This document shows, in pieces, positions 26,157 through 54,263 of a DNA stretch of 64,000 nt. Under the pieces are notes generated by a model. It did no database searches. It worked only from the letters and a program-made list of their open reading frames with translations, and was not told where the DNA came from. The stretch's first letter is position 1, and the number at the start of each line of letters is the position of its first letter. Position numbers and translations under genes: made by a program. Source of the DNA: Phycisphaerae bacterium (GTDB lineage Bacteria > Planctomycetota > Phycisphaerae > Sedimentisphaerales > Anaerobacaceae); the NCBI GenBank assembly GCA_016782865.1, contig JADHXR010000010.1:1-64000 (forward strand), given 5' to 3'.

Positions 26157-26915
26157 TCAGGAGACTGTTTCTGACAGTTGAAGCTGTTTCTCGGCGAGGT
26201 GCTTTATTGCCATCGCGAATCTTTCCGGAGTGCCGATGTCTATCAAGCGGCCCTGGGTGACAAAACCATAACAGCTCTGTTTGACTATCTTTGGGAAAAG
26301 CTCATTTTCCAGTGAGAAGCTGGTGTCGTCGGGGATAAGCGACAAGAGTTCCTTTTGGAAAAGGTAAATCCCTGCGTTGACGTAGCGGCTTTGGCATCGC
26401 TGGTTCCTTTCCTCGAAGCCTACAATTCTCTGTGAGCCGTCCAGCGATACCAGACCACAGTCGCCCGTGTTTTGGGTATCGAGAACGACCATTGACATTA
26501 ATGCGTGCCGGGCCGAATGGAAATCGTAAAATGCGCGCAGGTCCACCGAACAAAACGAGTCGCCGTTGGCTACCAAGAAGGTATCGCTTCGTATGAACTT
26601 CGCCGCGTTCTTGATAGCGCCTGCGGTTCCGAGCGGCTTGTGCTCCTCGGAAATGACGAACTGGCGCGAACTTCTGGGGCTGCTATAGTAATCACGGATG
26701 ATTTGAGACATGTATCCGGCGCACAGGATGAAACGCCTGAAGCCGAATTCGCAGAAAGAATCTATAAGGATATCGAGAAAGGGCCTGTCGTTTATCTCGG
26801 CCATTGGCTTGGGGCGATCGTCGACGACCCTGCGCAGGCGACTTCCGGTGCCGCCGCACAGTATGACCACGTCAATGTCACTGAGTTTGTTCTTAATAGG
26901 AGTCCTGGTGTGCAT
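26157..26915 (-). CDS. hddC: HddC-like sugar-1-phosphate nucleotidylyltransferase
   Basis: 252 residues. The GT-A-like nucleotidyltransferase signature VILCGGTGSRLRRVVDDRPK is at residues 17-36, followed by FILCAGYM, EEHKPLGTAGAI, the metal-binding VANGDS and RLIDIGTPERF. The short length and close match to HddC, together with the adjacent kinase, suggest GTP + heptose-1-phosphate to GDP-D-glycero-D-manno-heptose in the cytosol. A glucose- or mannose-1-phosphate substrate cannot be excluded. It overlaps the kinase stop by 23 bases and is the last gene of the long minus-strand locus. Confidence 0.75.
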   Translation of the reverse strand: MHTRTPIKNKLSDIDVVILCGGTGSRLRRVVDDRPKPMAEINDRPFLDILIDSFCEFGFRRFILCAGYMSQIIRDYYSSPRSSRQFVISEEHKPLGTAGAIKNAAKFIRSDTFLVANGDSFCSVDLRAFYDFHSARHALMSMVVLDTQNTGDCGLVSLDGSQRIVGFEERNQRCQSRYVNAGIYLFQKELLSLIPDDTSFSLENELFPKIVKQSCYGFVTQGRLIDIGTPERFAMAIKHLAEKQLQLSETVS

Positions 26916-27891
26916 ATACGATGATCTGGCTGCCTAATGTTTCGAAATTAAAAGGGACATGCAATAAATTGTTTAGTGCCTTACCGACGTGCCGCTGCTT
27001 CCTGGGCGGCACAAACAAGAGCATAAACCCGCCGCCGCCGGCGCCGCACAACTTTCCCCCGATTGCCCCGGCGTTTAGTGCAACCTCGTACATGCTGTCG
27101 ACCGCATCGGTGGAAACCCGGCTCGACAGACTTCGCTTGAGCCTCCAGGACTCATAGAGAAGCTTGCCGAAACCTTCTATGTTCTCATTGGGGTTGTTCA
27201 GAATGTTGACCGCTTCGTCCACCATTTCCCTCATGTTTCTCAGTTCGGCGCTCTTCGAAGCGGTATTGCGAATCTGTTCGGTGGCAATTTCTGACGCGGT
27301 TCTGGAGAATCCGGTGAAGAATAACATCAGATGATTCTGCAGTTCCGTTATCCTCCGCTGGTTCAAGGTGACCGGCTGGACAAAGAAATTTTCCTTGCCG
27401 TTAAACTCTATCCTGTTGAGCCCGCCAAAGGAAGCGGCGACCTGGTCCTGAGAGCCTACGGACTCGCCAACTACGTCCTGTTCGACGTAGATAGCATTCG
27501 AAGCGAGACGGCGTTTGCCGACCATCCGGCCTGCCAGCGCATAGAGGGCGTTCAAAAAGCCGATGGTGAATGCGGAACTGGAGCCAATCCCGGAGCGTGC
27601 AGGCAGGTCGCTCGTGTGCACCATCTCAATGCCCTGTTCTATCCGCATGAATTTGAGACATTCTCGCACGGCAGGGTGCTTTATCTCGTTAATGTCGCAT
27701 TTTTCCTCTCGCAGACTGTATCTTATGCGATATTTATAGCCGAAGAACGGCGGCAGAAACCGGCAGCTAATATAGCAATACTTGTCGATGGTCGTGTTCA
27801 GCACCGCTCCGCCGTTTTCTCTGTACCAGGCGGGATAATCCGTCCCCCCCCCGAAAAACGAGATACGAAATGGTGTTCGGCTGATAATCAT
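26893..27891 (-). CDS. hddA: HddA-like GHMP heptose kinase
   Basis: 332 residues. GHMP kinase motifs: RTPFRISFFGGGTDYPAWY at the N-terminus, the ATP loop ARSGIGSSSAFTIG (about residue 103) and the C-terminal GAIGGKLCGAGGGGFMLLF. This matches D-glycero-D-manno-heptose 7-phosphate kinases that form the 1,7-bisphosphate. A partner phosphatase (GmhB) and isomerase (GmhA) are not in the window and may be encoded elsewhere. It is separated from the DegT-fold gene by 188 bases, the widest gap in the locus. Confidence 0.8.
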   Translation of the reverse strand: MIISRTPFRISFFGGGTDYPAWYRENGGAVLNTTIDKYCYISCRFLPPFFGYKYRIRYSLREEKCDINEIKHPAVRECLKFMRIEQGIEMVHTSDLPARSGIGSSSAFTIGFLNALYALAGRMVGKRRLASNAIYVEQDVVGESVGSQDQVAASFGGLNRIEFNGKENFFVQPVTLNQRRITELQNHLMLFFTGFSRTASEIATEQIRNTASKSAELRNMREMVDEAVNILNNPNENIEGFGKLLYESWRLKRSLSSRVSTDAVDSMYEVALNAGAIGGKLCGAGGGGFMLLFVPPRKQRHVGKALNNLLHVPFNFETLGSQIIVYAHQDSY

Positions 27892-27968
27892 CGACTATCC
27901 CTGGCTAATTTGTCTTCGACAGACCTTTACTGTCGTATTCTGGCAATTGTGCAAATTCTGTGCCTGTG

Positions 27969-27999
27969 GCCAAAAAACACTGTTTCTGCGTGTTTTGGG
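27969..27999 (-). terminator. Hairpin in the 188-base gap before hddA
   Basis: On the minus strand CCAAAACAC, a 9-base loop and GTGTTTTTTGG form a hairpin with a U-rich 3' arm. It could be a weak terminator or attenuator that lowers hddA/hddC expression relative to the upstream genes. The stem is A/T-rich, so confidence is low. Confidence 0.3.
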
Positions 28000-28079
28000 G
28001 CTCCGGCTGACAAATGTGTAAGAATTTCAGACAACTGCGGCGTGACGGCGCTGCGCCGGCCCCATGCTTGATTCGTCTG

Positions 28080-29279
28080 TCATGTGTTCTCTGATAGGAA
28101 TTCCTCGACGGTGTCAAGGACGTGGTCGCACTCCTGCTTGCCGAGGTCCTGGTGCACCCCAATGTGAATGCCGTGATTGCCGATATATTCGGAATTTGGG
28201 AAATCCCCAATCTTGTGGCCTAAGAAACTAAAGCCCGGGCACTGAGTCGGCATGGAAGAGAACAGGTTTCTCGTGTCTATTCCATTTTTTTCCAGATGCC
28301 CTGCAAGTGTGTTCCGCGTGAATTGTGCTTTGTCCTGAACAACGATGGGAAGTGCATGCGGACCTATTTCTTCGTAGGATTCCTTTCTTATAGTCGCCAG
28401 GCAGGGCTCGAATTTCCCGAATTTCTCCATGAGATAGTACAGATTCTCTCTTCTCCTGCAAAGAATATCGTCGTATTCGTCGATATTCCCAATACCGATC
28501 GCGGCTTCCATCTCATTCATCTTGGTCGAGAAGCCGACCCTTTCGAACAGAAATCTGATGTCGGCACTGTCGGCATGCTTGAATCTTTTTGCACAATATG
28601 CGGAGGCTGTGTTGAGCACGCAGCTCTCACATTTACATGCTCTTCCGTGACTTCTCAACGACCTCAACACTTCGGCAAAGTCCGGCTTATTTGTGGTGAC
28701 AATTCCGCCTTCGATGGTGGTAATAATGTGCGCGACATAAAGGCTGAACGCCGCCATGTCACCTAATGTCCCTATGTTCCTGCCTTTATAAACCGCCCCG
28801 TGGGCTTCGGCCGCATCTTCGATTACATAGAGATTGTTCTTTTGGGCGATGTCATCTATGGCATCCATATCCGCGGGCTTGCCCATCAGGTGTACAGGGA
28901 TAATCGCCCTGGTTCTTTCGGTAATAACATTTTCTATCTGCGAGGGATCTATGTTGAGGCTCTTGTTGTCAACATCGACGAAAACGGGGACAAATCCCGC
29001 CTGCAAGATTGCATTGCCCGTCGCGACAAAGGATAGCGCTGGGACTATGATCTCGTCCCCTCGTTCGGCACCAAAGTCATACAGCACGGCCAGCGCCAGA
29101 GCAACGGCGTCGGTGCCGCTGCTGACTGCAACCGCTTGCGTCGCACCCACAACGCCGGCGAATTTCTTCTCGAATTCTCTCACATACTTGCCGCTTGACA
29201 GCCTGTTCGAAGCAAGAATATCGGCTATTAGATTCTTGCTTTTCTCCGTTACGGAGATTGTTCCAAAGGGGATTCTCAT
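28080..29279 (-). CDS. DegT-fold PLP enzyme with His for Lys: likely sugar 3-dehydratase
   Basis: 399 residues of the DegT/DnrJ/EryC1/StrS fold. SSGTDA (PLP phosphate), EDAAEAHG and RLSSGKYVREFE are present. At the position of the Schiff-base Lys the sequence is FSLYVAHIITTIEGG: His184 replaces Lys. This swap defines the ColD and RfbH/E1 3-dehydratases, which deoxygenate C3 of GDP- or CDP-4-keto-6-deoxyhexoses. Four Cys follow (C215, C217, C220, C229) ahead of a KRF, resembling the Fe-S region of E1, but the first E1 ligand position (EDNC) is EDAA here. A GDP-sugar substrate is likely given the neighbours. ATGA overlap with the epimerase gene. Confidence 0.8.
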   Translation of the reverse strand: MRIPFGTISVTEKSKNLIADILASNRLSSGKYVREFEKKFAGVVGATQAVAVSSGTDAVALALAVLYDFGAERGDEIIVPALSFVATGNAILQAGFVPVFVDVDNKSLNIDPSQIENVITERTRAIIPVHLMGKPADMDAIDDIAQKNNLYVIEDAAEAHGAVYKGRNIGTLGDMAAFSLYVAHIITTIEGGIVTTNKPDFAEVLRSLRSHGRACKCESCVLNTASAYCAKRFKHADSADIRFLFERVGFSTKMNEMEAAIGIGNIDEYDDILCRRRENLYYLMEKFGKFEPCLATIRKESYEEIGPHALPIVVQDKAQFTRNTLAGHLEKNGIDTRNLFSSMPTQCPGFSFLGHKIGDFPNSEYIGNHGIHIGVHQDLGKQECDHVLDTVEEFLSENT

Positions 29280-29785
29280 TTTCCTTGCTCGTCTCTTTCA
29301 GACAATATTGGATTTTCTATCGGCCACCAGATGTTGAGCCGCGGATCGTTCCATTTGTAAGTGAATTGTTTCGAACGATCATAATAAGTGGATTGCTTGT
29401 AGTGGAAAGTAGCTTCGTCACTCAGAACCAGATAGGCGTTGCCGTATTTGGGAGGTACCAATACCTGCATTCTGCTCGCCTCCGACAGGATGAAGGACTG
29501 CCACCTGCCGAAATCCTTCGACTCGGTATCACAATTTACGACCACGAAGTATAACTTGCCATGCAAACAGCAAAGCAATTTGTGCGTCACGTTGTCGCCG
29601 TGGATACCGCGAAGAACATTTCTGGTGGATATGGAAATATCGTCTTGCACGAATTTCACGTCAATTCCGTTCTCCGCGTACAACCGGTGATTGTACGTCT
29701 CGACAAATTGACCCCTGTGGTCCTCGAAAACATGCGGTTTTATCACGAACACGCCTTCCAACTCCGTCTTGGAAACTTCTATCAT
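29276..29785 (-). CDS. RmlC-like sugar epimerase
   Basis: 169 residues of the RmlC cupin family. It has VLRGIHGD with the catalytic-type His, VHEDHRG-like FEDHRGQFVETY, the second-Tyr region YKQSTYYDRS and the C-terminal WNDPRLNIWWP. The usual GFAHGF box is changed to KYGNAYLV (His to Asn). In Campylobacter heptose pathways RmlC-like proteins epimerise GDP-4-keto-6-deoxyheptose at C3 and/or C5. I infer a similar role because of hddA/hddC and the GMD-like gene in this operon. Overlaps the 3-dehydratase-like gene by four bases. Confidence 0.7.
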   Translation of the reverse strand: MIEVSKTELEGVFVIKPHVFEDHRGQFVETYNHRLYAENGIDVKFVQDDISISTRNVLRGIHGDNVTHKLLCCLHGKLYFVVVNCDTESKDFGRWQSFILSEASRMQVLVPPKYGNAYLVLSDEATFHYKQSTYYDRSKQFTYKWNDPRLNIWWPIENPILSERDEQGK

Positions 29786-29806
29786 TTTGCGTCCTTTGTG
29801 CTGATG

Positions 29807-31108
29807 CTAGAAATTAAGATTTCTTTCGCGTAAGATAGCCTGAAGCTCGCTGTAATTGCCAATAATCCTCTCACTGCTCATGCTATTGCCCCAGGGTGTC
29901 GTTTCTTCGTATTCGAACCACATGTGCGGCTGTTCCTCCTCGTCAAATCGAGCGTAGAGGTTGCGGTAATCATGCCAGTCGGGGCTGACGTTCCTGATGC
30001 CGTAAGACTTGGGGTTCGTTGCGATGTCCGAGCCCGGCAGGGGGCAGAAAAGATTGAGCAGCACGCTGGAGGGCTCAGACTCTTCGATGAATTCCAGAGT
30101 GCGACCGACAATGTCTTGGGGCTCGCCCGGCAAGCCGAAAATAAGATGCAGCCTTGCCCCTATTCCATATTTTCTAAGTGCTTTGATGTATTGCTTCGCT
30201 TCTTCGAGCTTGATCTTCTTGTTGATGAGCTTCAGGGTCTCGGGCCAGACGCTCTCGATTCCAATGCCTATGTCGGTGCACCCGGCCTCGGCGGCGAGTT
30301 TCACCATATCGGCCGAGATGCCGTTAGCACGGGACTGGCCCCGCCATTTCACTTGCGTGCGTCCGATCGCTTCCAGGAACGGCCTGGCGATTCTTTCGTT
30401 GGTAGGAATAGCGTTGTCGTCTTTCAGCGCCAACGCTTTGACGTTGTAGTCTTTCTTGAGGTATTCGATCTCCTGCTCTATCAGCTCCGGTGTCCTGAAC
30501 CTGGTCGGGCCGAAGTTCACATTCGCACAGAAACTGCACCTAAACGGGCACCCCCGCGAGAACAGGACACTTGTCCCGGGCAGGTCCATATTCTCGCCGG
30601 CCAGAAGTCCGGTTTCAACTATCGCAGGCAGAGGTATGTACTTTCGGTCGGGACAGGGGTACCTGTTTATATCGACAGGTTCAGAGCTCTGATAAACGGG
30701 TTTCAACTCCGCGTTGAGGATATCTTTGACGATTTCAACGACGGTCTCGTCTCCTTCTCCAAGAACGATCGAGTCGAACTGCTTTGCGCTGTCCTCCTGG
30801 AAGAGATTGACGTGCACACCGCCGGCTACATGGACCGTTTTGGGATAGATCGAGCAAAGCAAATCCTTGACCTCGCATACATTGCGATACTCCTGACTCA
30901 TCAGCGTATAAAAGTAGACGTCCCTCTCAGGAAGATAGTATCTGGCGTTTTCCCTTGATATGCCGCGTAAGTCTATCACAGACAAGTCCAGCCTATCCCC
31001 GAATTTCTCTTCGAGTATGGTCAGAAGATAAAGCGAAGTCAGCGGCTGACTTCTAAATGGCTTGAAGTTTCCAGCATCCGGGGGTAGCACGAAACCTATA
31101 TGTAACAT
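29807..31108 (-). CDS. Cobalamin-type radical SAM protein 1
   Basis: 433 residues. An N-terminal Rossmann-like B12-binding-type domain (about 1-140; VHVAGGVHVN, VLGEGDETV) is followed by a radical SAM barrel with the [4Fe-4S] motif CPFRCSFC (Cys187, 191, 194) and GIGIESVWPETLKL. The family performs methyl transfers and other radical chemistry on unactivated carbons. In a sugar operon, C-methylation or C-epimerisation of a nucleotide sugar or glycan is plausible, but the reaction cannot be assigned. 18 bases after the next radical SAM gene. Confidence 0.7.
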   Translation of the reverse strand: MLHIGFVLPPDAGNFKPFRSQPLTSLYLLTILEEKFGDRLDLSVIDLRGISRENARYYLPERDVYFYTLMSQEYRNVCEVKDLLCSIYPKTVHVAGGVHVNLFQEDSAKQFDSIVLGEGDETVVEIVKDILNAELKPVYQSSEPVDINRYPCPDRKYIPLPAIVETGLLAGENMDLPGTSVLFSRGCPFRCSFCANVNFGPTRFRTPELIEQEIEYLKKDYNVKALALKDDNAIPTNERIARPFLEAIGRTQVKWRGQSRANGISADMVKLAAEAGCTDIGIGIESVWPETLKLINKKIKLEEAKQYIKALRKYGIGARLHLIFGLPGEPQDIVGRTLEFIEESEPSSVLLNLFCPLPGSDIATNPKSYGIRNVSPDWHDYRNLYARFDEEEQPHMWFEYEETTPWGNSMSSERIIGNYSELQAILRERNLNF

Positions 31109-31126
31109 TCTTGGTATCTCTTGCTC

Positions 31127-32455
31127 TCACTTCGCGTGGACTGCGTCATATTGCTCGTAGGCCTGATCCTGGTACCTTATGAGGTCCTCGTTCGAGACTT
31201 CGGACAGATTTATCGCCACGCTGTCGTAATAATTTAGGTCTTCCATTTGCTCGAATGACGTTGGGTCCACCAGACCTTTTCTGGTGGCAATGTCATAAAC
31301 TCTTGTGCCGGGATAAGGAGCCAGGATCATAAACTTAGATTGGTCGGCGTCAAGCTCCAATGCGAATTCCATTGTCTCTTTGATAGTCTCGTGCGTATCC
31401 CCTGGCAAGCCGATAATGTAGCTGGCGATTACTGGGAGATTCGCCCGCTTCATGGCGCTTACAGCGTCTCTAAACTGCTCTTTGGTCTCTCTCTTTCCGA
31501 TATTCTTGAGTATTTGTTCGTTTCCGCTCTCGACCCCGATAGCGGCAAAGGCACACCCCGAGTCCCTCAGTGCTTCGATGAGCTCATCGGAGAAAGCGTC
31601 CGCCCTTATCTGCACGGTATAGCTTATGTCCAGATCTTCTTCGATTATGCGATTGCAGATTGCCATAGCTCTCTTCTTGTCGGCCGCAAACGTATCATCC
31701 CAGAACATCAAGTTTTGTACCCCCAGGACGTTGACGATGTGCCTGATCTCGTCCATCACGTTTTCCGTGGATCTTAGCCGGAGCTTGCGTCTCCAGGTCA
31801 CTCGCGAGGCGCAGAAAGTGCAATCATAGGGGCACCCTCTTCCGGAAAAGATCGCCAAATGTCTGCCCTTGAAGTACACCGGATCGACATAATCGTCCAG
31901 GTTCATCAGGTCCCACGCTGGAAAAGGCATTTCGTCGAGATTCTTTACGAAAGGACGCATGCCGTTGATTTTTGTTCCGGTGCCGTCCCGGTAGATCAGG
32001 TTTTCCACACTTGAAGGGCCGCGTCCGGCCTCCAGAGTATCGAGAAGTTCCAGGAGGGCCTCTTCGCCCTCGCCAATTATCCCATAGGAAATGCCGTCAA
32101 ACAGAGCGGTCTGAGGCGAGCCCGTTACGTGTGGGCCGCCTACAATAATAGTAACCGCCGGATCTAATCTCTTTACCTCCTGCGCCATTCTCACAACGGC
32201 GGGGAACCTTGGCGTGAGAGTCGTTATGCAAACGTATTTGGGGCATGCCGCCAATACGATTTCAGCCATATCAGTGACCGAAGAAATTTGAGTCGTCTCA
32301 AAATCCACCAGGACGCAGTCGTAGTCTCCCCGTTCACGGACAAAAGACGCCAGAAGGGCGATATTCAGGGGGCAGCGGATTACTCCCTGCTTCTTCCACT
32401 GACCTGACTTTTGCAGATTGGGCGGTCGAACAAATACCACCTTTGCGCTATTCAT
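31127..32455 (-). CDS. Cobalamin-type radical SAM protein 2
   Basis: 442 residues. N-terminal B12-binding-type domain (IIVGGPHVTGS, GIIGEGEEALLELL), MPFPAWDLM linker, radical SAM motif CPYDCTFC (Cys208, 212, 215), then FAAIGVESGNEQIL and YIIGLPGDT. The whole architecture is that of the BchE-like/class B group. It differs from its two paralogues here throughout, so the three probably act on different positions or substrates. Four bases separate it from SDR protein 1. Confidence 0.7.
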   Translation of the reverse strand: MNSAKVVFVRPPNLQKSGQWKKQGVIRCPLNIALLASFVRERGDYDCVLVDFETTQISSVTDMAEIVLAACPKYVCITTLTPRFPAVVRMAQEVKRLDPAVTIIVGGPHVTGSPQTALFDGISYGIIGEGEEALLELLDTLEAGRGPSSVENLIYRDGTGTKINGMRPFVKNLDEMPFPAWDLMNLDDYVDPVYFKGRHLAIFSGRGCPYDCTFCASRVTWRRKLRLRSTENVMDEIRHIVNVLGVQNLMFWDDTFAADKKRAMAICNRIIEEDLDISYTVQIRADAFSDELIEALRDSGCAFAAIGVESGNEQILKNIGKRETKEQFRDAVSAMKRANLPVIASYIIGLPGDTHETIKETMEFALELDADQSKFMILAPYPGTRVYDIATRKGLVDPTSFEQMEDLNYYDSVAINLSEVSNEDLIRYQDQAYEQYDAVHAK

Positions 32456-32459
32456 AGAA

Positions 32460-33473
32460 TCAATCCTCTGACATTATGCTGTATCTCTTGAGCAGCTTCG
32501 ACTTATTCGCTGCATACCACTTGATCGTCTTTTCAATGCCGGCATCGAAACTTACCTTCGGCGACCATCCAAGCGTGGACTTAGCCTTTTCTATGCTCGT
32601 GACCCTGTACTTTTCACCCTGGGGCTTGCTCGTGTCCCATTCTATGCCTATCCTGCGATCCAGTATTTTCCCAGCGTGCCTGACGACAGTCTCGGCGACG
32701 GTCTTGATAGTCAGCGGTTCGCCACTGCCGGCGTTCAATGGTTCAGTGACGTTCCTGCGGACCATCAGTATCATAAGATCGGCCACGTCGTCGGCGTAAA
32801 CAAAATCTCTCACAGCCGAGCCGTCCCCCCAGACTGTCAGTGGATTCTCACCGCCGACAACGCGCTGTATGAGGGCCGGTATGATCAATGCCGAGGTGCT
32901 GTTGAAGTTGTCATAGGGGCCGAATGTGTTGCCCGGTCGTATCGTCAGAAAACCTTCGGTATCGTATTGAAGCTTGTAGGCTTCTATTTGCATCTCTCCG
33001 ACAAGTTTCGAGATACCGCCGAATCTGTCCGAAGGATGCGGGAGCCCGGCAAAGGCGTTTTTCTCCTCGAAAACTCTGGCAGGGGGGTAAATGCAGATGC
33101 TGCTCGTATACAAGAACCGTTTCACGTGAGCCTCGCGTGCGGCCTCCATTATCTGAATGTTCATCAGGATGTTTTTGAGCAGGAATGTTGACGCCTTTGT
33201 CTTTGCAACACCTATGCCGCCCTTGATGCCGGCAAGATGAAACACTATGTCGATGTCCTTTAGAACTTCTTTGCAGACTTCTCTCTCGCAAATATCACCT
33301 CTTACAAATTCTATCTCTTCGTCAAAAGGAGAGTTTTCATCGAGGCTCACCACCCTGACATTCGCCCCCAGTTCCTGCAATTTCTTTACAAGGGGAATGC
33401 CTATAAGCCCTGTGCCCCCGGTTACCAGGATATTGTTCTTGGCGAGATCTTCTTGTGTTTCAGATTTCTTCAT
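32460..33473 (-). CDS. SDR sugar epimerase/dehydratase-like protein 1, YxxxK Tyr missing
   Basis: 337 residues of the extended SDR family. The Rossmann motif NILVTGGTGLIGIPL, FHLAGIKGG, the YTSSICIYPP Ser position and RPGNTFGPYDNF substrate loop are all present. Where the catalytic YxxxK is expected the protein has GGISK (G152, K156), so the Tyr proton donor is absent; Phe151 is one position off. NAD binding looks intact. It may rely on another residue, act as a non-catalytic subunit, or have changed chemistry. Embedded in the operon between two radical SAM genes. Confidence 0.7.
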   Translation of the reverse strand: MKKSETQEDLAKNNILVTGGTGLIGIPLVKKLQELGANVRVVSLDENSPFDEEIEFVRGDICEREVCKEVLKDIDIVFHLAGIKGGIGVAKTKASTFLLKNILMNIQIMEAAREAHVKRFLYTSSICIYPPARVFEEKNAFAGLPHPSDRFGGISKLVGEMQIEAYKLQYDTEGFLTIRPGNTFGPYDNFNSTSALIIPALIQRVVGGENPLTVWGDGSAVRDFVYADDVADLMILMVRRNVTEPLNAGSGEPLTIKTVAETVVRHAGKILDRRIGIEWDTSKPQGEKYRVTSIEKAKSTLGWSPKVSFDAGIEKTIKWYAANKSKLLKRYSIMSED

Positions 33474-33498
33474 TCAAAAGTTCCAAAATTGGCGGCAC

Positions 33499-34917
33499 TC
33501 AAATCACAGCGGCTCGGCAGTTGTCCGGCACTTCTCCAAATACTCTCTGTATGTACTCTTCTATATTCTTCTTTGGATTCAGTTCGTACCCCTTCTTCTG
33601 AAGCTCGCGACGTTTCTCTATCTTCAAGTCATCGCTTTCCATAACTCCGGGGTACTGTTTCCCATAATCATCCCAGTTGTTAGAGAGTATTCTCAATCCA
33701 TGCTCGTGCCTGACGGCCATGTCTCTCAACGCCGTTTTCGGAAATGGGACCGCAATCGGAAAAGTGATCGAATACAAATCCAACTCTTGAGCCAGTTCTA
33801 TATTCTTGTTCACTGTCTCGGCCGTCTCCCCGGGAAGGCCGATTATGAAGCTGCCCACACATATGAGCCTGGCTTCCTTCGCCCACTGGATCGCGTTCTT
33901 GATCTGGTCTATCGTGATTCGCTTCTTGATGGCCTTGAGTATCTTCTCGTCACCGCTTTCGAGACCGAAGAAGACGTAGTAACAGCCGGCTTTTCTCATT
34001 AACCTGAAGAGTTCGGGAGAAACGTTATTCACTCTTGTGCTGCAGGACCAGGTCACCTTCTTATTGAGTCCTCTCTCGATCATTTGCTCGAAAAGTTCGT
34101 TGCACCACTTAAGGTCAAACATAAAAGTCTCATCCACAAAACATATGGACTCGCAGCCGAAATCTTCTATGTTTCGTTCGATCTCGCTTAGAACCGACTG
34201 CACAGAGCGGGACCTTCTTCGTTGCCCGAAGGCGCGAACGCAGAAGACGCAGGAATATGGACACCCTCTGCTGGTTGTCATGGGCAGTTCCAGGTTCGTT
34301 CGATGCGGATAGCACCCCTGGTAATCGGTCAGGTCAAAATCCTCCCATGCCGGGAAGGGCAGATCGTCGAGGCGCTCGATTGCCTGACGTGAGAATTCCT
34401 TCTTGTCTCTCGTCACCACTCCGGCGACATCTGAAAGCGGTGTTCCCCGGTCAATACTATCGAGGATCTTGGGCAAAAGCAGTTCTGCCTCTCCACAAAC
34501 GGCGAAATCAAAGTCCTCAAACTCTTCCAGGGTCTCCTTTGGCGTCACCGTTGCGTGGACCCCACCCACACATACCGTAAGGGCCGGAAAGCGTTTCTTG
34601 ATTTCCTTTGCAATGAACGCTGCCGATTTGATCTGGACGGTGTATGCGGTGAACCCAACCAGCTTCGGATTAACCTCACCTATGTGTTCGAGCAGATCCT
34701 CGACGGTAAAGTGCGAGACGCCCATATCGATGAACTTAGCCCTTAATCCGTGTTGCCTGGCTACTGCGATGAGATAGCCCATGCCGAGAGGGGGGGATTC
34801 CTGATTCGGGATCTTCTTATCGACCCTGATTGTAAGTCTCTTCTTGCGGTCCTGCTCGACATCCAGACTGGGGTGCACCAGTAGAATATCGACGTTTTGT
34901 TTCCTGGCGATTTCCAT
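33499..34917 (-). CDS. Cobalamin-type radical SAM protein 3
   Basis: 472 residues from ATG 34917 (GGTGAG upstream); longer starts at 34941 or 34974 would run into the upstream gene. B12-binding-type N-terminus (TVCVGGVHATVTP, CGEAELLLP), DLPFPAWEDF linker, radical SAM motif CPYSCVFC (Cys219, 223, 226), FFGLESGDEKIL and FIIGLPGET. The last 60 residues are Lys/Glu-rich and not shared with the paralogues. Reaction unknown; a methylation or radical rearrangement of the pathway sugar is the best guess. Confidence 0.7.
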   Translation of the reverse strand: MEIARKQNVDILLVHPSLDVEQDRKKRLTIRVDKKIPNQESPPLGMGYLIAVARQHGLRAKFIDMGVSHFTVEDLLEHIGEVNPKLVGFTAYTVQIKSAAFIAKEIKKRFPALTVCVGGVHATVTPKETLEEFEDFDFAVCGEAELLLPKILDSIDRGTPLSDVAGVVTRDKKEFSRQAIERLDDLPFPAWEDFDLTDYQGCYPHRTNLELPMTTSRGCPYSCVFCVRAFGQRRRSRSVQSVLSEIERNIEDFGCESICFVDETFMFDLKWCNELFEQMIERGLNKKVTWSCSTRVNNVSPELFRLMRKAGCYYVFFGLESGDEKILKAIKKRITIDQIKNAIQWAKEARLICVGSFIIGLPGETAETVNKNIELAQELDLYSITFPIAVPFPKTALRDMAVRHEHGLRILSNNWDDYGKQYPGVMESDDLKIEKRRELQKKGYELNPKKNIEEYIQRVFGEVPDNCRAAVI

Positions 34918-34937
34918 ATCTTTCTCACCTGTTATTG

Positions 34938-35912
34938 TCATAAACTGATTTCCACTTCTTGCCGTCGATACCACTCGACGGTGTCTCTCAATCCTTCCTC
35001 CAGGGACATTTCATGCTCAAAACCGAGCAGCGTTCTTGCTTTCGACGTGTCAACCATCCTGAACGGTATTGCAGTCGGCTTGGACGCATCGAATACGACC
35101 TCGGCATCCGCATAGTCAGCGGCTCTGAGAATCAATCGAACGATTTGGCCGATAGTGACGACCTCACCATAACCGATATTGACCGGATCGCACTCGGCGT
35201 ATTTTTCCAGCATGAGCAGGCAACCCCGCGCAAGGTCCTGCACGTGAAGAAAATCTCGCACTTCATCGCCGGTCCCCCAAACTTCATACGGGCTGATCCG
35301 CTCGACGGCCTTCAAAATAAGCGCCGGTATGACATGGGCCCTTACCGGATCAAAATTATCAAATCGCCCGTATACCGCGGTTGGGCGTACGATTGCTATT
35401 TTCATGTCAGATTTCGACACAACATATTCCGCCAGGCGTTCCAGATAGCGTCTCATCCAACCGTAACCGAAATAACTTCGATGAGTCGGACCCGACCAGA
35501 ATTCCTCTTCCTTGATCGGATAATCCGCAACCGGATAACCCGTACTGCTGCTGAAGAGCAAAACCCGCTTCACCTCCGAGGCCCACGCGGCCTCCAATAT
35601 TCGCGAGGTAAGGATCAAATTAGCTGCGATAGCCGACATCGATTCAAGTGCCGTGACGCCGGCTCCGGTAACCACTCCTGCGGCATGAAACACAAAATCA
35701 ACGTCGCGAGTTGCCAGCAGGCAATCGTCAGGCTGCGCAAGGTCAGCCTCTACCGTCTCAATAGAGTTGTCCTCGATGAGCAGAGGGCGATTGTGAATAG
35801 GTACGCGAATTCTGGCTCCGTGCTTGAGCAACTCCTGGACAATGTGCGTTCCGACAAAGCCAGTCCCGCCGGTGACCAATACTTTCTTGTCTTTATAGAA
35901 TGGTTCGCTCAT
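34938..35912 (-). CDS. SDR protein 2, GDP-fucose-synthase-like with YxxxR
   Basis: 324 residues. Extended SDR with VLVTGGTGFVGTHI, FVFHAAGVV, FSSSTGYP and RPTAVYGRFDNF. The catalytic pair reads YGWMR (Tyr150 kept, Lys154 to Arg). GDP-fucose-synthase-like SDRs in GDP-heptose pathways reduce the C4 keto group. Arg might partly replace Lys, but activity should be altered. The gene begins directly at the stop of the 77-residue open frame, in the same reading frame. Confidence 0.7.
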   Translation of the reverse strand: MSEPFYKDKKVLVTGGTGFVGTHIVQELLKHGARIRVPIHNRPLLIEDNSIETVEADLAQPDDCLLATRDVDFVFHAAGVVTGAGVTALESMSAIAANLILTSRILEAAWASEVKRVLLFSSSTGYPVADYPIKEEEFWSGPTHRSYFGYGWMRRYLERLAEYVVSKSDMKIAIVRPTAVYGRFDNFDPVRAHVIPALILKAVERISPYEVWGTGDEVRDFLHVQDLARGCLLMLEKYAECDPVNIGYGEVVTIGQIVRLILRAADYADAEVVFDASKPTAIPFRMVDTSKARTLLGFEHEMSLEEGLRDTVEWYRRQEVEISL

Positions 35913-36146
35913 TCAATATATATGCCAGTAAGCGGAGACCTGCTCACCTGTGATGATGCTGGTGTGGAACCTGATGTTCAAGAAATCCTTTGCGGCCAGA
36001 TTGAGTGCATAATCAAGAACACTCAGAGCCTCTGTCCAGATAGGTGATGCGGTTTGGCCGTCGGCGTGTTGCGACTGCGCATTACGCTCCAGCAGCATTT
36101 GCGTGACATTGCGTTTCAGATTCTCAATCTTACCCTGATAGTCCAC
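35913..36146 (-). CDS. 77-residue protein in frame with SDR protein 2
   Basis: Starts with a 17-base overlap into the transketolase subunit gene and stops (TGA 35913-35915) immediately before the ATG of SDR protein 2 in the same frame. The tight packing and the sequence (helix-rich N-terminus, then FLNIRFHTSIITGEQVSAYW) favour a real product. It may be an independent small protein or the N-terminal extension of SDR protein 2 cut off by one stop codon. No family recognised. Confidence 0.45.
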   Translation of the reverse strand: MDYQGKIENLKRNVTQMLLERNAQSQHADGQTASPIWTEALSVLDYALNLAAKDFLNIRFHTSIITGEQVSAYWHIY

Positions 36147-37020
36147 AGCACACTCCGTCGAGCTTTTTCTGTATTGTCTTGTGCAACGATTCTACATCGA
36201 GACCTATCTCTTTTCTGGTGCCGGGCAACGTTCCATACCGGTCGCAAAATCTATCAGGCATGCCGTGAAAAGATACGGACAATTCGGGGACTTCGCAGAC
36301 AGCCTCATACAAACCGAACGCATCGTGAATAACCAGAATGTTCGTATGCTTGAATGATGCAATTGTCTCGGCGTCTATGGGTTTGATTGTATGAAAATAG
36401 ACAAGATTCACGTCCAGCTCTTTGCACGCTTCAAGAACGTTTCCGAGGATGGGTCCGGCGGTCATCACGGTAAGATTCGAATCACGATCCTGCAATACCG
36501 CTGCTTTGCCGAATTCAATGTCGGGAACGTCGATATTATGGGGATGGTCGGACAACCTGAAGTATGTAGCGTTTCCATTGTCATACTGGCTGCGAATCAG
36601 AACATCGACTTCTTTGTTGGAACCAGGCTGAATAACCTCCATGCCGGGCAGCAACCGCAATATGGCAAGATCGGTGTAAGAATGGTGCGTAGCTCCATCC
36701 CATGCATAATCGAACGACGCGCCACAGGATGCTATGTTGCCGCCGAACTGATTGTAACACATATCGAGTTTTATCTGTTCGTAACTCCTCTCCGTGACAA
36801 AAGGAGCAATGGTATGAACGAATGGGGAAAACCCCTGCGAGCTTAGTCCGGCCCCGACACTTATCAGCGTATTCTCGCAGATTCCCATGTTATAGAATCT
36901 GTCCGGATACTTCTCTTTGAACTCGCCGAAGAGATAAACGCTGACATCTCCCAATATCATGACGATATTGTCATCGTCAGCCGCCAAATCCATAACGGTA
37001 TTCTTAAATTGCTTTCTCAT
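36130..37020 (-). CDS. Split transketolase, C-terminal subunit
   Basis: About 296 residues from the in-frame ATG 37020, overlapping the N-subunit stop by 17 bases. It carries the pyrimidine-binding and C-terminal domains of transketolase: the catalytic-type Glu in MGICENTLISVGAGLSSQG, HTIAPFVTERSYEQIK, and the C-terminal Rossmann-like region (NLTVMTAGPILGNVLEA, YFHTIKPIDAETI). Two-gene transketolases in sugar loci transfer two-carbon units. Some related TPP enzymes add a two-carbon branch to a keto-sugar nucleotide, which would fit the 3-dehydratase-like gene nearby. Central pentose-phosphate use is less likely in this setting. Confidence 0.8.
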   Translation of the reverse strand: MRKQFKNTVMDLAADDDNIVMILGDVSVYLFGEFKEKYPDRFYNMGICENTLISVGAGLSSQGFSPFVHTIAPFVTERSYEQIKLDMCYNQFGGNIASCGASFDYAWDGATHHSYTDLAILRLLPGMEVIQPGSNKEVDVLIRSQYDNGNATYFRLSDHPHNIDVPDIEFGKAAVLQDRDSNLTVMTAGPILGNVLEACKELDVNLVYFHTIKPIDAETIASFKHTNILVIHDAFGLYEAVCEVPELSVSFHGMPDRFCDRYGTLPGTRKEIGLDVESLHKTIQKKLDGVCCGLSG

Positions 37021-37786
37021 CCAATTCCCCAATCAACTTCTCGAACTCCGACTCAGTCGGCGATTTCCTGTGCCACTGGTACTGATTATCAATCAGAGTC
37101 TGACATCCATAGCCCTTCTTCGTGTGAGCTACGATAGCCTTCACCATGTCGCCGTTCTTGCTGATCTCACTTGTCAGGCCAATCAAATCGTGGCCGTCGG
37201 CTTCGGTGACTTTGCAGCCGAATGCCTTGAATCGCTCGGCAGGATTGTGTATCTGCAGGCCTCTTGAGTGAGACATGTTATTGTCATAGATAATGGTAAG
37301 GTTGTTGAGTTTCAGATTGGTTGCGACCATCGTTGCTTCCCAAACCGATCCTTCGTTTGACTCTCCGTCGCCGATAAGAGCGTATACTCTCCGTGAATTC
37401 TTCCTGATCTTGAACGCCAGCGCCATACCCACGGCAAGGCCAATTCCGTGGCCCAGAGAGCCGGTTGAAGCCTCGATGCCCGGCACCTTGAGCCTGTCGG
37501 CGTGACATCCGAAATCACTCGCAAAGGAGCCATACGAATATACGCTTTGCATGTCAAAATACCCGAAGTGAGCCATGACCGTGTAGTGGGCAAGTGACGC
37601 GTGTCCTTTGCTGAGAATGAAAATATCTCTTTCGTCCCAGGATGGATTCTCAGGGTCATGCCTGATCGTGCTGTAAACGGCATACAAAATCTCCACCACG
37701 GAAAAACACGTCGGTATATGTCCGTGCCCGCTTTCCCTGGAGATGCTGAGTATGGACTTTCTGATGTCTTTGCAGTTCGGTATCAT
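37004..37786 (-). CDS. Split transketolase, N-terminal TPP-binding subunit
   Basis: 260 residues. Shows the TPP/Mg motif GDGESNEGSVWEA (about residue 137), SKGHASLAHYTVMAHFG (active-site His), GHGHIPTCFSVVEIL and ASTGSLGHGIGLAVGMALA. It pairs with the C-terminal subunit encoded next; together they make about one standard transketolase (roughly 550 residues, shorter than the one-piece enzyme, as is normal for split forms). ATGA overlap with the TylF-type gene upstream. Confidence 0.85.
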   Translation of the reverse strand: MIPNCKDIRKSILSISRESGHGHIPTCFSVVEILYAVYSTIRHDPENPSWDERDIFILSKGHASLAHYTVMAHFGYFDMQSVYSYGSFASDFGCHADRLKVPGIEASTGSLGHGIGLAVGMALAFKIRKNSRRVYALIGDGESNEGSVWEATMVATNLKLNNLTIIYDNNMSHSRGLQIHNPAERFKAFGCKVTEADGHDLIGLTSEISKNGDMVKAIVAHTKKGYGCQTLIDNQYQWHRKSPTESEFEKLIGELDEKAI

Positions 37787-38541
37787 TCTATCTCTATATA
37801 TGAAATTCTGGAGGTCATTGGGAATCGCTGGATCCTTACGTGATTCAATTCGAAGACTTCTTTGAGGGCAAGCGTCTCACCCGGGAATATGTCGTCTGAC
37901 AGCTCATCGAACACCAGTATGCTGCCCTTACACAAATGAGGTTTAATCGTTTCCAACGCGACCTTTGTCGGCGTGTAAATGTCAAAATCAAAGATGGCAA
38001 GTGAAACGATCGTTTCAGGATTACTCTTGAAATACTCGGGGATGGTTTCAACGGCATCGCCTTTGACCAGTTCATACTTCTTCAAATGCGAAATGGGATT
38101 TAACGCCTCTTGTATGGCTAATATTTCGTCGAGATAATTCTCGTAACCCGGCACTACCGAAAACGACCCATCCTTGCATTTGCACCGGTTGCCATCCTTT
38201 TCGCTCATGCCTTTGAAACCCTCGAACGTATCGAAGCCGACAATCTTCCTGTGTCGATTGAAAGGTTCGAAGATGCCCCTTAGAGCCGACATGACAGACA
38301 ATGTTTGCCCCCATCTAACCCCGAACTCTGCGATGATTCCATGCGTATGGACGATTTTTCGGTACATCTCATAGAAGAAGAGCAGCCTTGACAAGTTCTT
38401 TGATGTCAAGAACAGCCCGAGGTTTGCCAGAACCTCATCATCAGGCAGGGGGCAGGAGTTGAAAAGCGACATCAGCTCGGCGAAAGAGCCCTTCTCGCCG
38501 GAACTTGACAGGACAATTGCATCGTGTTGTAGTGTTTTCAT
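37783..38541 (-). CDS. TylF/macrocin-O-methyltransferase-like enzyme
   Basis: About 252 residues from ATG 38541, which overlaps the stop of SDR protein 3 as ATGA; longer starts lie inside that gene. Class I SAM fold: motif I IIAEFGVRWGQTLSVMSAL, IVGFDTFEGFKGMSE, AIFDFDIYTPTKVALE and GSILVFDELSDDIFPGE with metal-binding-type acids. The family O-methylates sugars in a metal-dependent way. A role in methylating the glycan or nucleotide sugar is likely; acceptor unknown. Confidence 0.75.
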   Translation of the reverse strand: MKTLQHDAIVLSSSGEKGSFAELMSLFNSCPLPDDEVLANLGLFLTSKNLSRLLFFYEMYRKIVHTHGIIAEFGVRWGQTLSVMSALRGIFEPFNRHRKIVGFDTFEGFKGMSEKDGNRCKCKDGSFSVVPGYENYLDEILAIQEALNPISHLKKYELVKGDAVETIPEYFKSNPETIVSLAIFDFDIYTPTKVALETIKPHLCKGSILVFDELSDDIFPGETLALKEVFELNHVRIQRFPMTSRISYIEIE

Positions 38542-39515
38542 TTTCGCCACCAATTTCTGTTTTCGATCCACCACTCGGTTGTTTCCTTGATTCCGTCCTC
38601 GACTGTATAGCCGGGCTTCCATCCGAGCAATTCCCGGGCTTTCGTGCAGTTGAGACTTCTGAACTTCAGGGTGGACGGCTTGTCCGTCCGGTATTCTATC
38701 TTTGACGGCTCGTGCCGGGCATGTTTCAAAGCCCAGCTTACGACGCCCCCCACCGTGGTCTGAACCGCAGAACCTACGTTGAAAGTGTCAAATTTTACTT
38801 TGTCGTTATCCAGCATTGCCACGATAGCCCCGGCAAAATCGTCTGAATATATGACATCTCGGACAATATCCGGACTCCCCCAAACTTCAAAGGGGTCCTT
38901 CCTTTCGACCGCTTTCCTTATGATAGCTGGAATAAAATGCGACGTTTTCGGGTCAAACTTGTCAAACGGCCCAAAAATGTTTGCTGCACGAGCGATCACA
39001 ATTTCCATGTCGCAAGTTTCGTGCCAGAACCGGCACAGTTTCTCGATAAACCGGACGACCCAACCCATCCCATAATGAGCCTTACAGGGATCCCTGTTCA
39101 GGTCGAGGTCATCCTCACTTAATTGCTTTGCACTTTCGTGGTACAAAGACGCCGAGCTGATATATACGACCCTTTTGACATTCTCAAAGCCGAACGCCTC
39201 CAGCATCTGCGCATTCATAATCACATTGTCGTTAATCTGACTCCAGGGTTTTGATTCCAGTATTGCAGCGCCGCCGGTGTTGGCGGCGCCCATTACAGCG
39301 CAATCGCAACCTGCCGCCAGTTGCCGGCAAGCTTCGCGGGATCGCAAGTCACCCTGCACATACTCAACCTGTTCGTGCTCGATGAACGGCGTGGTCTTGT
39401 GATGAACCGCACGTATGCGCACCTTTGGATACCTTTCGAGCAGGTGCGTAATAATAGCCGAGCCGGCAAGACCGGTCGCTCCGGCCAAAAAGACGGTCTT
39501 GTTGTTGAGATCCAT
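38538..39515 (-). CDS. SDR protein 3, YxxxK lost (MxxxV)
   Basis: 325 residues of the extended SDR type, closest in layout to SDR protein 2 of this operon. VFLAGATGLAGSAI, YISSASLY and RAANIFGPFDKFDP are present. At the catalytic pair the aligned residues are Met150 and Val154 (YGMGWVVRFIEKL), so both Tyr and Lys are gone, although Tyr148 lies nearby. NAD(P) binding is plausible and standard SDR catalysis is not. It may be a structural partner of another SDR here. Three bases after the GMD-like gene. Confidence 0.7.
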   Translation of the reverse strand: MDLNNKTVFLAGATGLAGSAIITHLLERYPKVRIRAVHHKTTPFIEHEQVEYVQGDLRSREACRQLAAGCDCAVMGAANTGGAAILESKPWSQINDNVIMNAQMLEAFGFENVKRVVYISSASLYHESAKQLSEDDLDLNRDPCKAHYGMGWVVRFIEKLCRFWHETCDMEIVIARAANIFGPFDKFDPKTSHFIPAIIRKAVERKDPFEVWGSPDIVRDVIYSDDFAGAIVAMLDNDKVKFDTFNVGSAVQTTVGGVVSWALKHARHEPSKIEYRTDKPSTLKFRSLNCTKARELLGWKPGYTVEDGIKETTEWWIENRNWWRK

Positions 39516-39518
39516 TTG

Positions 39519-40520
39519 CTAAACCTTCTCCAGACAGCGAGGAGATTTGCACAGTAGCTTTCGCCAGTATTCCAACGTGTCGGCCAACGTCTTCTCAAAC
39601 GGTATTTCAGGTTTCCATCCTGTAGCCTTGTAGAACTTATCAACACAAGGCACCTGCAGTGTTACGTCCGACGGACGCAGCCGGGCGGGATCGACTTGAA
39701 CCTCTATGCCCTTCAATGTTGACATCGCCAGCAGTTTGTCGAGCATCTGGCCGATCGTCATCGTTTCAGTCCCGCCGACATTGTAGACTTCCCCCGGTTG
39801 GCATTTTTCCGCTATCAACCAGTAAGCTCGCACGGCATCTCTGACGTCGGAGAACGTCCTGACGCTGTCGAGGTTTCCGACTTTGACAATCGGATCGGCC
39901 AAGGCCGCTTCAGCGGATGCTATCTGCTTGGCGAAATTAGAGACGACGAAGACTTCACCCCGGCGCGGGCCCGTATGCGTGAACATTCGCGTTCGTATGG
40001 TTTTGATTTTCCATGAAAGCCAGTACTGGAGGGCCAGCATGTCCTCTCCGACCTTGCTCACCGCATACGGTGAAGCGGGCCGCAGTGGATTGTCCTCTTT
40101 GATCGGGATTTCATCGGCCCTTACCTGTCCGTATACTTCCGATGAGCTGCATATATGTATTACGGGGTCGTATCCCTCAGATTGTTTCAACTGCTTGACC
40201 ACCTCGAGCAAATTGCACGTGCCGACAATATTGGTCTCGAGCGTGTCAATCGGAGCGATAAAGCTGAAATCGACGTACGATTGAGCGGCCAGGTGGAAGA
40301 TGATATCCGGTTTGTGCTCAGCGAGTATGCTCCTGAGCGAAGGAAAGTCCCGGAGGTTCCCCTGATGCAGAGTGACTGTGTCCAGGATTGCTTCGATGTT
40401 CTCCTTTGGAGACCGCCATCGAACCAGGCCGCAAACATCGACTCGGGGATGATTATCGAGTATGTACTCAGCCAGATGGCTTCCCACAAAACCTGTTATA
40501 CCTGTGATTAGTGCTTTCAT
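39519..40520 (-). CDS. gmd: GDP-mannose 4,6-dehydratase-like enzyme
   Basis: About 333 residues from ATG 40520 (AGAGAAG upstream). An intact extended SDR: ALITGITGFVGSHLAEYIL, DIIFHLAAQSYVDFSF, CSSSEVYGQV with the GMD-type Ser/Glu, PYAVSKVGEDMLALQYW with intact YxxxK, and VRTFSDVRD. Product is a GDP-4-keto-6-deoxy sugar, from mannose or, given hddA/hddC, possibly from heptose. It is the first sugar enzyme after the glycosyltransferase genes and the only one of four SDRs with a full catalytic set. It is somewhat shorter than E. coli Gmd. Confidence 0.8.
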   Translation of the reverse strand: MKALITGITGFVGSHLAEYILDNHPRVDVCGLVRWRSPKENIEAILDTVTLHQGNLRDFPSLRSILAEHKPDIIFHLAAQSYVDFSFIAPIDTLETNIVGTCNLLEVVKQLKQSEGYDPVIHICSSSEVYGQVRADEIPIKEDNPLRPASPYAVSKVGEDMLALQYWLSWKIKTIRTRMFTHTGPRRGEVFVVSNFAKQIASAEAALADPIVKVGNLDSVRTFSDVRDAVRAYWLIAEKCQPGEVYNVGGTETMTIGQMLDKLLAMSTLKGIEVQVDPARLRPSDVTLQVPCVDKFYKATGWKPEIPFEKTLADTLEYWRKLLCKSPRCLEKV

Positions 40521-49721: not shown

Positions 49722-49726
49722 GCCCC

Positions 49727-51667: not shown

Positions 51668-51774
51668 CTATACACTTCCCACCCGTATCCATGTCCGCCA
51701 AGCTGCATACTAAAACAACTCGGATTGGCAGTTTTCCCAGAAAAATAGCACTAAATTTGGCTCTACTCTGAGGA

Positions 51775-51804
51775 TTATCGGCCAGAGTGCTTCTTTGAGG
51801 CCAG
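51775..51804 (-). promoter_or_regulatory. Sigma-28-like promoter upstream of gene D
   Basis: Minus strand: CTGGCCTCAAA, 11 bases, then GCCGATAA (complement at 51775-51782), a perfect sigma-28 -10 box. The -35 part does not match TAAAGTTT, but the same CTGGCCTCAAA-N11-GCCGATAA arrangement stands before gene E, so it is conserved. An A-run lies upstream as a possible UP element. Confidence 0.55.
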
Positions 51805-51871
51805 TTTTTTTGGAATACAGCTTTGCTTGTCCCAGGGCGAGTTCGGGTTGGAAATGCAAACGCGGGCTTTC

Positions 51872-53659: not shown

Positions 53660-53770
53660 CTGAACTGCTCCTAACAAAGAGGGCAATGTGGTGTATACCC
53701 CCACAAACTACCTCAGCCATAGGCCAATTCTAATAAGGAAGGCCTTCGATTCGAGTTTTCTCAACTGATG

Positions 53771-53903: not shown

Positions 53904-54263
53904 TTAGTCGGCGATTGCTTTCCAGCCTTGATTTAACTCTTCCAGAAGCGCAATCACCTGGCGAATCATTTCCGGGTCGTTCTTGCTATTCGCCTGTGAG
54001 AGGCGTTCATTCATGAAGAAGTAGAGCTTGCGAAGGTTTCCGGCTACTTCGCCGCCGGCGTTCATGTCCAAAACAGCGTTGAGTTCGGTTATTATGTCCA
54101 GGGCCTTGCTGATGTAGTTGCCCTTGGCCTCGTAGTTCTTGGCTTCGGCCTCTTTTATTGCCAACTTCAGGAATCTGACTGCGCCCTCGTAAAGCATGAC
54201 AATAAGCCGGCCCTTGCTCTGTGTGGTGACCGCGGTGTCCTGATATGCTCGGATTCCGTTCAT
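53904..54263 (-). CDS. fliS: Flagellar export chaperone FliS
   Basis: 119 residues, the usual FliS length. AYQDTAVTTQSKGRLIVMLY at the N-terminus, then KLAIKEAEAKNYEAKGNYIS and a helical bundle ending NQGWKAIAD match FliS, which binds the C-terminal D0 region of flagellin in the cytosol and prevents premature polymerisation. Encoded right after flagellin, as is common. No FliD is present in the window. Confidence 0.9.
   Translation of the reverse strand: MNGIRAYQDTAVTTQSKGRLIVMLYEGAVRFLKLAIKEAEAKNYEAKGNYISKALDIITELNAVLDMNAGGEVAGNLRKLYFFMNERLSQANSKNDPEMIRQVIALLEELNQGWKAIAD

Follow-up and report, generated by a model that had tools for sequence, protein, structure and literature searches.

The closest described counterpart of the genes considered here is the GDP-heptose chemistry of Campylobacter jejuni, in which sedoheptulose 7-phosphate is a known precursor of GDP-heptose (PMC10680097), and strains HS:5 and HS:11 make GDP-3,6-dideoxy-heptoses via a pyridoxal phosphate (PLP)-dependent C3-dehydratase (PMC10440746). 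Split transketolases (TKs) have been proposed to transfer hydroxyacetyl units to keto sugars in the cases of miharamycin and amipurimycin, with function pending and with all candidates found in Streptomycetes (2025 review, PMC12247030). CalS11 is the TDP-rhamnose 3'-O-methyltransferase of calicheamicin. We describe a 14-gene operon that brings together relatives of the heptose enzymes, a split TK and a CalS11-like methyltransferase, encoded in a 64,000-nucleotide stretch (the window; contig JADHXR010000010.1, positions 1 to 64,000) of a Phycisphaerae bacterium (Planctomycetota). On balance, the product of this operon is probably a methylated GDP-6-deoxy-heptose with a two-carbon branch, a 3-dehydratase being available for a 3,6-dideoxy form and flagellin being its most likely destination.

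The GDP-heptose operon and its flagellar setting

The operon consists of 14 intact open reading frames (ORFs) on the minus strand, from position 40520 to 26157, in the order 4,6-dehydratase, SDR_A, TylF-type methyltransferase, TK-N, TK-C, SDR_B, RS1, SDR_C, RS2, RS3, RmlC-like protein, DegT/E1-like protein, HddA and HddC (Table 1; SDR, short-chain dehydrogenase/reductase; RS, radical S-adenosylmethionine (SAM) protein). Most of these overlap or lie 3-25 bases apart (spacing of -85 to +25 bases), the exceptions being 217 bases between TK-C and SDR_B and 188 bases between the E1-like gene and HddA. For the 4,6-dehydratase, the RmlC-like protein, HddA and HddC alike, the most similar solved structure is that of a heptose enzyme. 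The dehydratase scores 296 bits against the heptose dehydratase versus 135 bits against GDP-mannose dehydratase (GMD), the RmlC-like protein is closest to C. jejuni GDP-4-keto-heptose epimerases, and HddC is closest to a protein of the 6-deoxy-D-mannoheptose pathway. GmhA and GmhB are encoded outside the operon, by a gmhB-gmhA pair adjoining an HldE-like gene on another contig of the same genome (C133), with the GmhA match below the equivalog cut-off; in C. jejuni, GmhB (Cj1152) is also named separately from the capsule genes Cj1424-1425 (PMC10680097). A GDP-heptose start of the pathway is well supported by these matches; within what sequence can tell, the identity of the genes as a GDP-heptose operon is established, and the product is very probably an unusual seven-carbon sugar. 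The first-pass annotation of this DNA, whose gene list and coordinates were correct, every listed gene being an intact minus-strand ORF, had suggested that core enzymes of the Campylobacter type form a GDP-heptose pathway, and this is borne out by the closest enzyme matches, with flagellin genes alongside. It had left the product as a branched, methylated deoxyheptose or deoxyhexose; the heptose is supported and the hexose is disfavored on the dehydratase, HddA, HddC and RmlC matches, the branch and the methyl groups being predicted.

The genes that precede the operon, on the same strand, encode FlgE, flagellin, FliS and a block of TPR/GT41 proteins. The order flagellin-FliS-GT41-operon is repeated in the closest relative (L151), whose TPR/GT41 block is 71-75% identical. 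In another locus (L152), judging by similarity and by eye, the operon has genes of the flagellar rod, ring and hook and hook-associated genes as its neighbors, and in a distant planctomycete (L042/L050) HddA, HddC, the TK pair, TylF, a B12 radical SAM gene and RmlC are found between FlgK/FlgL/FliW and flagellin. The related cluster of Desulfospira joergensenii (L098/L154) lies in what appears by eye to be a glycosyltransferase-rich polysaccharide locus. GT41 proteins are soluble protein glycosyltransferases, and the adjacent TPR/GT41 proteins are candidate flagellin glycosyltransferases.

As to the distribution of these genes, an alignment scan with RmlC of 84,980 species genomes returned 80 loci, and the RmlC anchor biases every count made on them. 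By record title these belong to Planctomycetota, Omnitrophota, Desulfobacterota-type bacteria, Bacillota, Nitrospirota, Chloroflexi, Lentisphaeria, Acidobacteria, candidate phyla radiation (CPR) groups and others, and as many come from metagenome-assembled genomes, labels such as Thermoplasmata archaeon may be binning errors. Desulfospira joergensenii DSM 10085 and Desulfocucumis palustris are among the cultured carriers. The 14-gene set is not a chance juxtaposition, because one locus (L052) carries the complete set in unchanged order, at 72-90% identity and with flagellin, FliS and GT41 genes upstream, and an Omnitrophota locus (L106) has 13 of the 14, rearranged. HddA relatives (at least 40% identity) are present in 62 of the 80 loci, the TK pair in 39, a TylF/CalS11-like gene in 29, and a match to any of the B12 radical SAM queries in 43, many of these at superfamily level only. 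The order SDR_C-RmlC-SDR_B is seen in 21 loci, and the modules SDR_A-TylF-TK-SDR_B, SDR_C-RmlC-SDR_B and dehydratase-TK-RmlC are also found apart. In a test not anchored on heptose genes, three phylum samples, drawn around the genome of the window and two carriers, were searched with TK-C by itself, an E-value of at most 1e-70 defining the window type. One sample, of 392 genomes, had two carriers, the genome itself and G253; another had three carriers in 395 genomes and the last had six in 384. The ten window-type TK-C genes with enough flanking sequence all sit with RmlC/HddA-type genes, the contig of G932 being too short. No description of this gene combination was found in the open-access literature, which is weak evidence of absence, as subscription papers were not covered.

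A protein of about 300-330 amino acids is encoded in the distant planctomycete locus (L042:4434-5423) and in 33 other loci (e.g., L055:6610-7578 and L074:7075-8055), and is absent from the operon of the window. It has no Pfam match at 1e-5, and an EFGCG-like motif suggests a class I SAM methyltransferase.

The split transketolase and the accompanying enzymes

The TK-N and TK-C proteins match the transketolase N and pyrimidine-binding domains of Pfam, and, compared with human TK and with the full-length TK of the same genome, they retain the thiamine diphosphate (ThDP) motif and the catalytic His, Glu and Asp. Three of the four phosphate-binding residues of TKs (R358, S385, H461 and R520, E. 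coli numbering) are replaced, S385 by Tyr, H461 by Ser and R520 by Asp, with the Arg equivalent to R358 retained, while the genome's own full-length TK (C148) possesses all four. Across the TK clade of the window the position equivalent to R520 is Asp, His or Ala. These replacements speak against a sugar-phosphate role and favor another donor or acceptor. A tree was built of 62 TK pairs, with a small comparison set of 15 non-heptose loci. In it, the window clade contains sequences from heptose loci only (support 1.0), and TKs from heptose loci occupy three or more distinct positions, which suggests that they were recruited more than once. Surface-sugar loci without a match to heptose genes also contain split TKs, as TylF-TKN-TKC triads with DegT-family genes (L039 and L041, same phylum), and so these enzymes may serve other sugars too. 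Branching of the heptose is the best single explanation for the presence of the split TK, with the chances about even.

A YerE-type lyase, that is, a ThDP enzyme of the decarboxylase superfamily, was considered and rejected, the matches of the split TK being transketolase domains. Two further split TK pairs are encoded in the same genome (contigs C42 and C52; L144 and L145), one of them beside ABC-transporter-like and kinase-like genes and probably catabolic.

The E1-like protein of the DegT family has His184 at the position of the PLP lysine of aminotransferases. Its family profile scores 241 bits against E1 (3bcx), over the full length, versus 217 bits against ColD. Its Cys215, Cys217, Cys220 and Cys229 (C-x-C-x2-C-x8-C) are invariant in four aligned members, with the first two aligning with the C-x-C of E1 and the last two shifted, and Ala seems to take the place of the cysteine that in E1 precedes the cofactor region. 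As the alignment with E1 extends to the first two cysteines only, an iron-sulfur cluster is possible. Relatives in two loci (L067 and L073) possess the His without those cysteines.

The closest structure to the methyltransferase is CalS11 (phmmer 2.5e-57; approximately 40% identity), which also ranks first in a Foldseek search with the predicted model; as confidence in this model is modest, with a mean pLDDT of 69.5, it is the sequence match that carries weight. The TylF match in Pfam is weak (E 0.01), PF05711 being recognized in eight of eight family members at E-values of at most 1.

The Tyr-x3-Lys motif, canonical in C. jejuni reductases, is present in the dehydratase and, by motif search and family alignments, is lacking at the active-site position of SDR_A, SDR_B and SDR_C. 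SDR_B has Tyr-x3-Arg at the expected place, SDR_C keeps the Lys and loses the Tyr, and both SDR_A and SDR_B have a conserved G-x-G-W/T-x2-R stretch instead. When the SDR_A and SDR_B families are aligned with the dehydratase family by hhalign, the surroundings of the catalytic motif are gapped; the loss of Tyr and Lys therefore rests on the other two approaches. The model of SDR_A (pLDDT 84; nearest 1e7s/1gfs) has a fold like those of GDP-fucose synthase and GDP-mannose 3,5-epimerase. A C4-reductase with the catalytic Tyr-x3-Lys is not among the three SDRs of the operon; an unlinked reductase elsewhere is possible.

Each of the three radical SAM proteins has a CxxxCxxC motif and a match to the B12-binding domain, that of RS3 (28.3 bits) being below the Pfam cut-off of 32.1. 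None reaches an equivalog cut-off in NCBIfam, so neither a characterized subfamily nor C-methyltransferase activity can be assigned from it. Relatives of each recur beside heptose genes, in different subsets of loci: those of RS1 (53-58% identity) in L100 and L106, those of RS2 (68-75%) in L055, L066 and L106, and those of RS3 (39-40%) in L064, L076 and L111.

The first-pass annotation had placed the split TK, the TylF-type methyltransferase and the three B12-type radical SAM proteins outside the Campylobacter pathway, and they are indeed outside the published C. jejuni heptose repertoire (PMC10680097). It had wrongly counted the 3-dehydratase as equally foreign, as C. jejuni HS:5 and HS:11 have a C3-dehydratase (PMC10440746). 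Its label of the SDRs as fucose-synthase-like holds for fold and sequence, while as to function it is doubtful, with all three lacking Tyr-x3-Lys.

Proposed pathway and alternatives

The pathway outlined here is a prediction from gene content, as to its substrates, order of steps, branching step, the parts played by the radical SAM proteins and SDRs, product and acceptor. Sedoheptulose 7-phosphate would be converted to GDP-heptose by GmhA, HddA, GmhB and HddC, and the 4,6-dehydratase would form GDP-6-deoxy-4-keto-heptose; 3-deoxygenation by the E1-like enzyme, as an option, and 3/5-epimerization by the RmlC-like enzyme would follow. The split TK would then place a two-carbon unit, probably hydroxyacetyl, on the C4 ketone, resulting in a tertiary alcohol. 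Later tailoring may involve the SDRs, O-methylation by the CalS11-like enzyme and modification by the radical SAM proteins, after which the neighboring TPR/GT41 proteins would attach the sugar to flagellin.

A number of points weigh against this scheme. TKs normally use aldehyde acceptors. Methylation of the CalS11 type, at the 3-hydroxyl, and 3-deoxygenation conflict at C3 of one sugar, so that either the methyl group is elsewhere or two sugars are made. The cysteine pattern of the E1-like protein differs from that of E1 beyond the C-x-C, and its relatives in two further loci (L086 and L096) have Lys, as in aminotransferases; the 3-dehydratase is therefore not a constant partner. With all three SDRs devoid of Tyr-x3-Lys, simple reductases are not obvious among them. 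The presence of related clusters in polysaccharide-like loci and in CPR-named records shows that the sugar is not specific to the flagellum as a class.

Two of these points lead to the best-surviving alternative, which we consider unlikely: that the TK extends a heptose aldehyde (e.g., an oxidized C7) or builds a separate two-carbon-extended piece rather than a C4 branch, and that there may be two products, one of them a methylated 6-deoxyheptose and the other a 3,6-dideoxy sugar. Aldehydes being the usual acceptors, the conflict at C3 and the separate occurrence of the gene modules all fit it, but no C7 oxidase is recognizable in the operon, the dehydratase necessarily forms a 4-keto sugar, and the relative with the complete gene set (L052) holds a single conserved operon. 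It is unlikely, too, that the sugar is destined for a surface polysaccharide and that flagellin lies nearby incidentally, as the Desulfospira locus and the CPR-named records might suggest; the gene order common to the window and L151, the position of the L152 and L042/L050 operons among flagellar genes, and the nature of GT41 enzymes speak for flagellin. Decidedly unlikely is an ordinary pentose-phosphate TK that supplies sedoheptulose 7-phosphate to HddA and HddC, with no branched sugar formed. This would agree with the role of that compound as precursor and with the retained TK histidines and R358-equivalent Arg, but not with the replacement of the other three phosphate-binding positions, nor with the genome already possessing a full-length TK and two further split pairs, nor with split TKs in surface-sugar loci without matched heptose genes, and the C. 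jejuni heptose clusters contain no TK (PMC10680097). Finally, a conventional route of the GMD/GMER type from GDP-mannose to a GDP-deoxyhexose, the other genes being accessory, to which the Pfam GDP_Man_Dehyd and GDP-fucose-synthase-like matches might point, is very improbable and was rejected on the dehydratase, HddA, HddC and RmlC matches and on the frequency of HddA relatives in the related loci.

If the branched-heptose pathway is correct, GDP-heptose chemistry, known mainly from Campylobacter capsules, also occurs in many uncultured phyla and in the flagella of planctomycetes, and nucleotide heptoses are indicated as substrates of B12 radical SAM enzymes. Branching of a keto sugar by a TK has been proposed but never demonstrated before (PMC12247030), and with a conserved, widespread gene set and an acceptor, GDP-6-deoxy-4-keto-heptose, that can be made enzymatically, the question is directly testable. 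More generally, and with somewhat more doubt than belief, we suggest that a hitherto undescribed class of split TKs that have lost the sugar-phosphate pocket moves two-carbon units onto GDP-4-keto-heptoses in several bacterial phyla, resulting in branched nine-carbon nucleotide sugars that are tailored by dedicated B12 radical SAM enzymes and that, in planctomycetes, decorate flagellin.

Table 1. Genes of the operon and of the adjoining flagellar block, with window coordinates.
Feature	Coordinates	Strand	Basis
GDP-heptose 4,6-dehydratase homologue	39519..40520	-	canonical YAVSK (YxxxK); CSSSEVYG motif as in C. jejuni enzyme
SDR_A, GDP-fucose-synthase-like extended SDR without Tyr-x3-Lys	38538..39515	-	NCBIfam/PDB matches; model; motif G-x-G-W-x2-R
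TylF-type methyltransferase, CalS11-like (nucleotide-sugar O-methyltransferase)	37783..38622	-	phmmer, Foldseek, PF05711
Split transketolase N subunit (TK-N, ThDP-binding)	37004..37786	-	PF00456 3.6e-32; GDGESN...DNN and catalytic His conserved
Split transketolase C subunit (TK-C)	36130..37032	-	PF02779 4.4e-23; alignment with human TK and genome's own full-length TK
SDR_B, GDP-fucose-synthase-like SDR	34938..35912	-	Tyr-x3-Arg at expected place
RS1, B12-binding radical SAM protein	33499..34974	-	PF02310 and PF04055; CxxxCxxC at residue 238
SDR_C, GDP-fucose-synthase-like SDR	32460..33473	-	Lys kept, Tyr not
RS2, B12-binding radical SAM protein	31127..32455	-	CxxxCxxC at residue 208
RS3, radical SAM protein, weak B12-binding domain	29807..31108	-	CxxxCxxC at residue 187; B12 domain 28.3 bits
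RmlC-like GDP-4-keto-heptose 3,5-epimerase homologue	29276..29785	-	best PDB 8db5/8dco (7.9e-38)
PMP-type 3-dehydratase homologue (E1/RfbH-like, DegT family)	28080..29279	-	His184 for Lys; RfbH 276.6 bits
HddA homologue	26893..27891	-	best PDB 3k85 heptose kinase 4.8e-41
HddC, heptose 1-phosphate guanylyltransferase homologue	26157..26915	-	best PDB 6jq8/5xhw
Five TPR proteins with GT41 (SPINDLY/OGT-like) domains	40547..53704	-	PF13844 for four; 40547-44059 by eye
FliS homologue	53907..54263	-	
Flagellin	54398..55723	-	PF00669/PF00700
FlgE hook protein	56081..57763	-	

Two large TPR proteins are encoded divergently from the flagellin block (58691-60484 and 60481-62943, plus strand), the second with a glycosyltransferase-2-like N-terminal region. 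Near the end of the operon, a 937-amino-acid frame (22702-25515, plus strand) comprises an RNase_H_2 (PF13482) region and an IS66 transposase (PF03050), and has the appearance of a nuclease-like gene that is fused to the transposase or reads through into it.

Comparison with described systems

The C. jejuni GDP-heptose pathway shares with this operon homologs of HddA, HddC, the 4,6-dehydratase, the C3/C5-epimerase and the C3-dehydratase, and in both cases GmhB is encoded outside the cluster. The operon differs in the addition of a split TK, a CalS11-like methyltransferase and three radical SAM proteins, in a dehydratase that is E1-like rather than ColD-like, in SDRs without Tyr-x3-Lys, and in a flagellar rather than a capsule locus. 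With E1 (CDP-4-keto-6-deoxy-D-glucose 3-dehydrase) and ColD, the 3-dehydratase has in common the His in place of the PLP lysine and a full-length profile match, while its cysteine set, of which C-x-C alone is aligned to E1, and its presumed GDP-heptose substrate are different. Likewise, the methyltransferase resembles CalS11 in fold and sequence, but its context is GDP-heptose. Yersiniose A, for which YerE acts on CDP-3,6-dideoxy-4-keto-D-glucose, presents a similar combination of a 3-deoxy-4-keto nucleotide sugar and a ThDP enzyme, with a two-carbon branch expected at C4 (PMC12247030), but it involves CDP and a hexose instead of GDP and a heptose, and a decarboxylase of the acetohydroxyacid synthase (AHAS) type instead of a member of the transketolase superfamily, the donor in the operon being probably a ketose, not pyruvate. 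The split TKs of miharamycin and amipurimycin, likened here by description, are also encoded by split genes and proposed to move a hydroxyacetyl unit onto a keto sugar; they are known from Streptomyces (PMC12247030), while the type described here is found in Planctomycetota, Desulfobacterota, Omnitrophota, Bacillota and others, and is tied to GDP-heptose genes.

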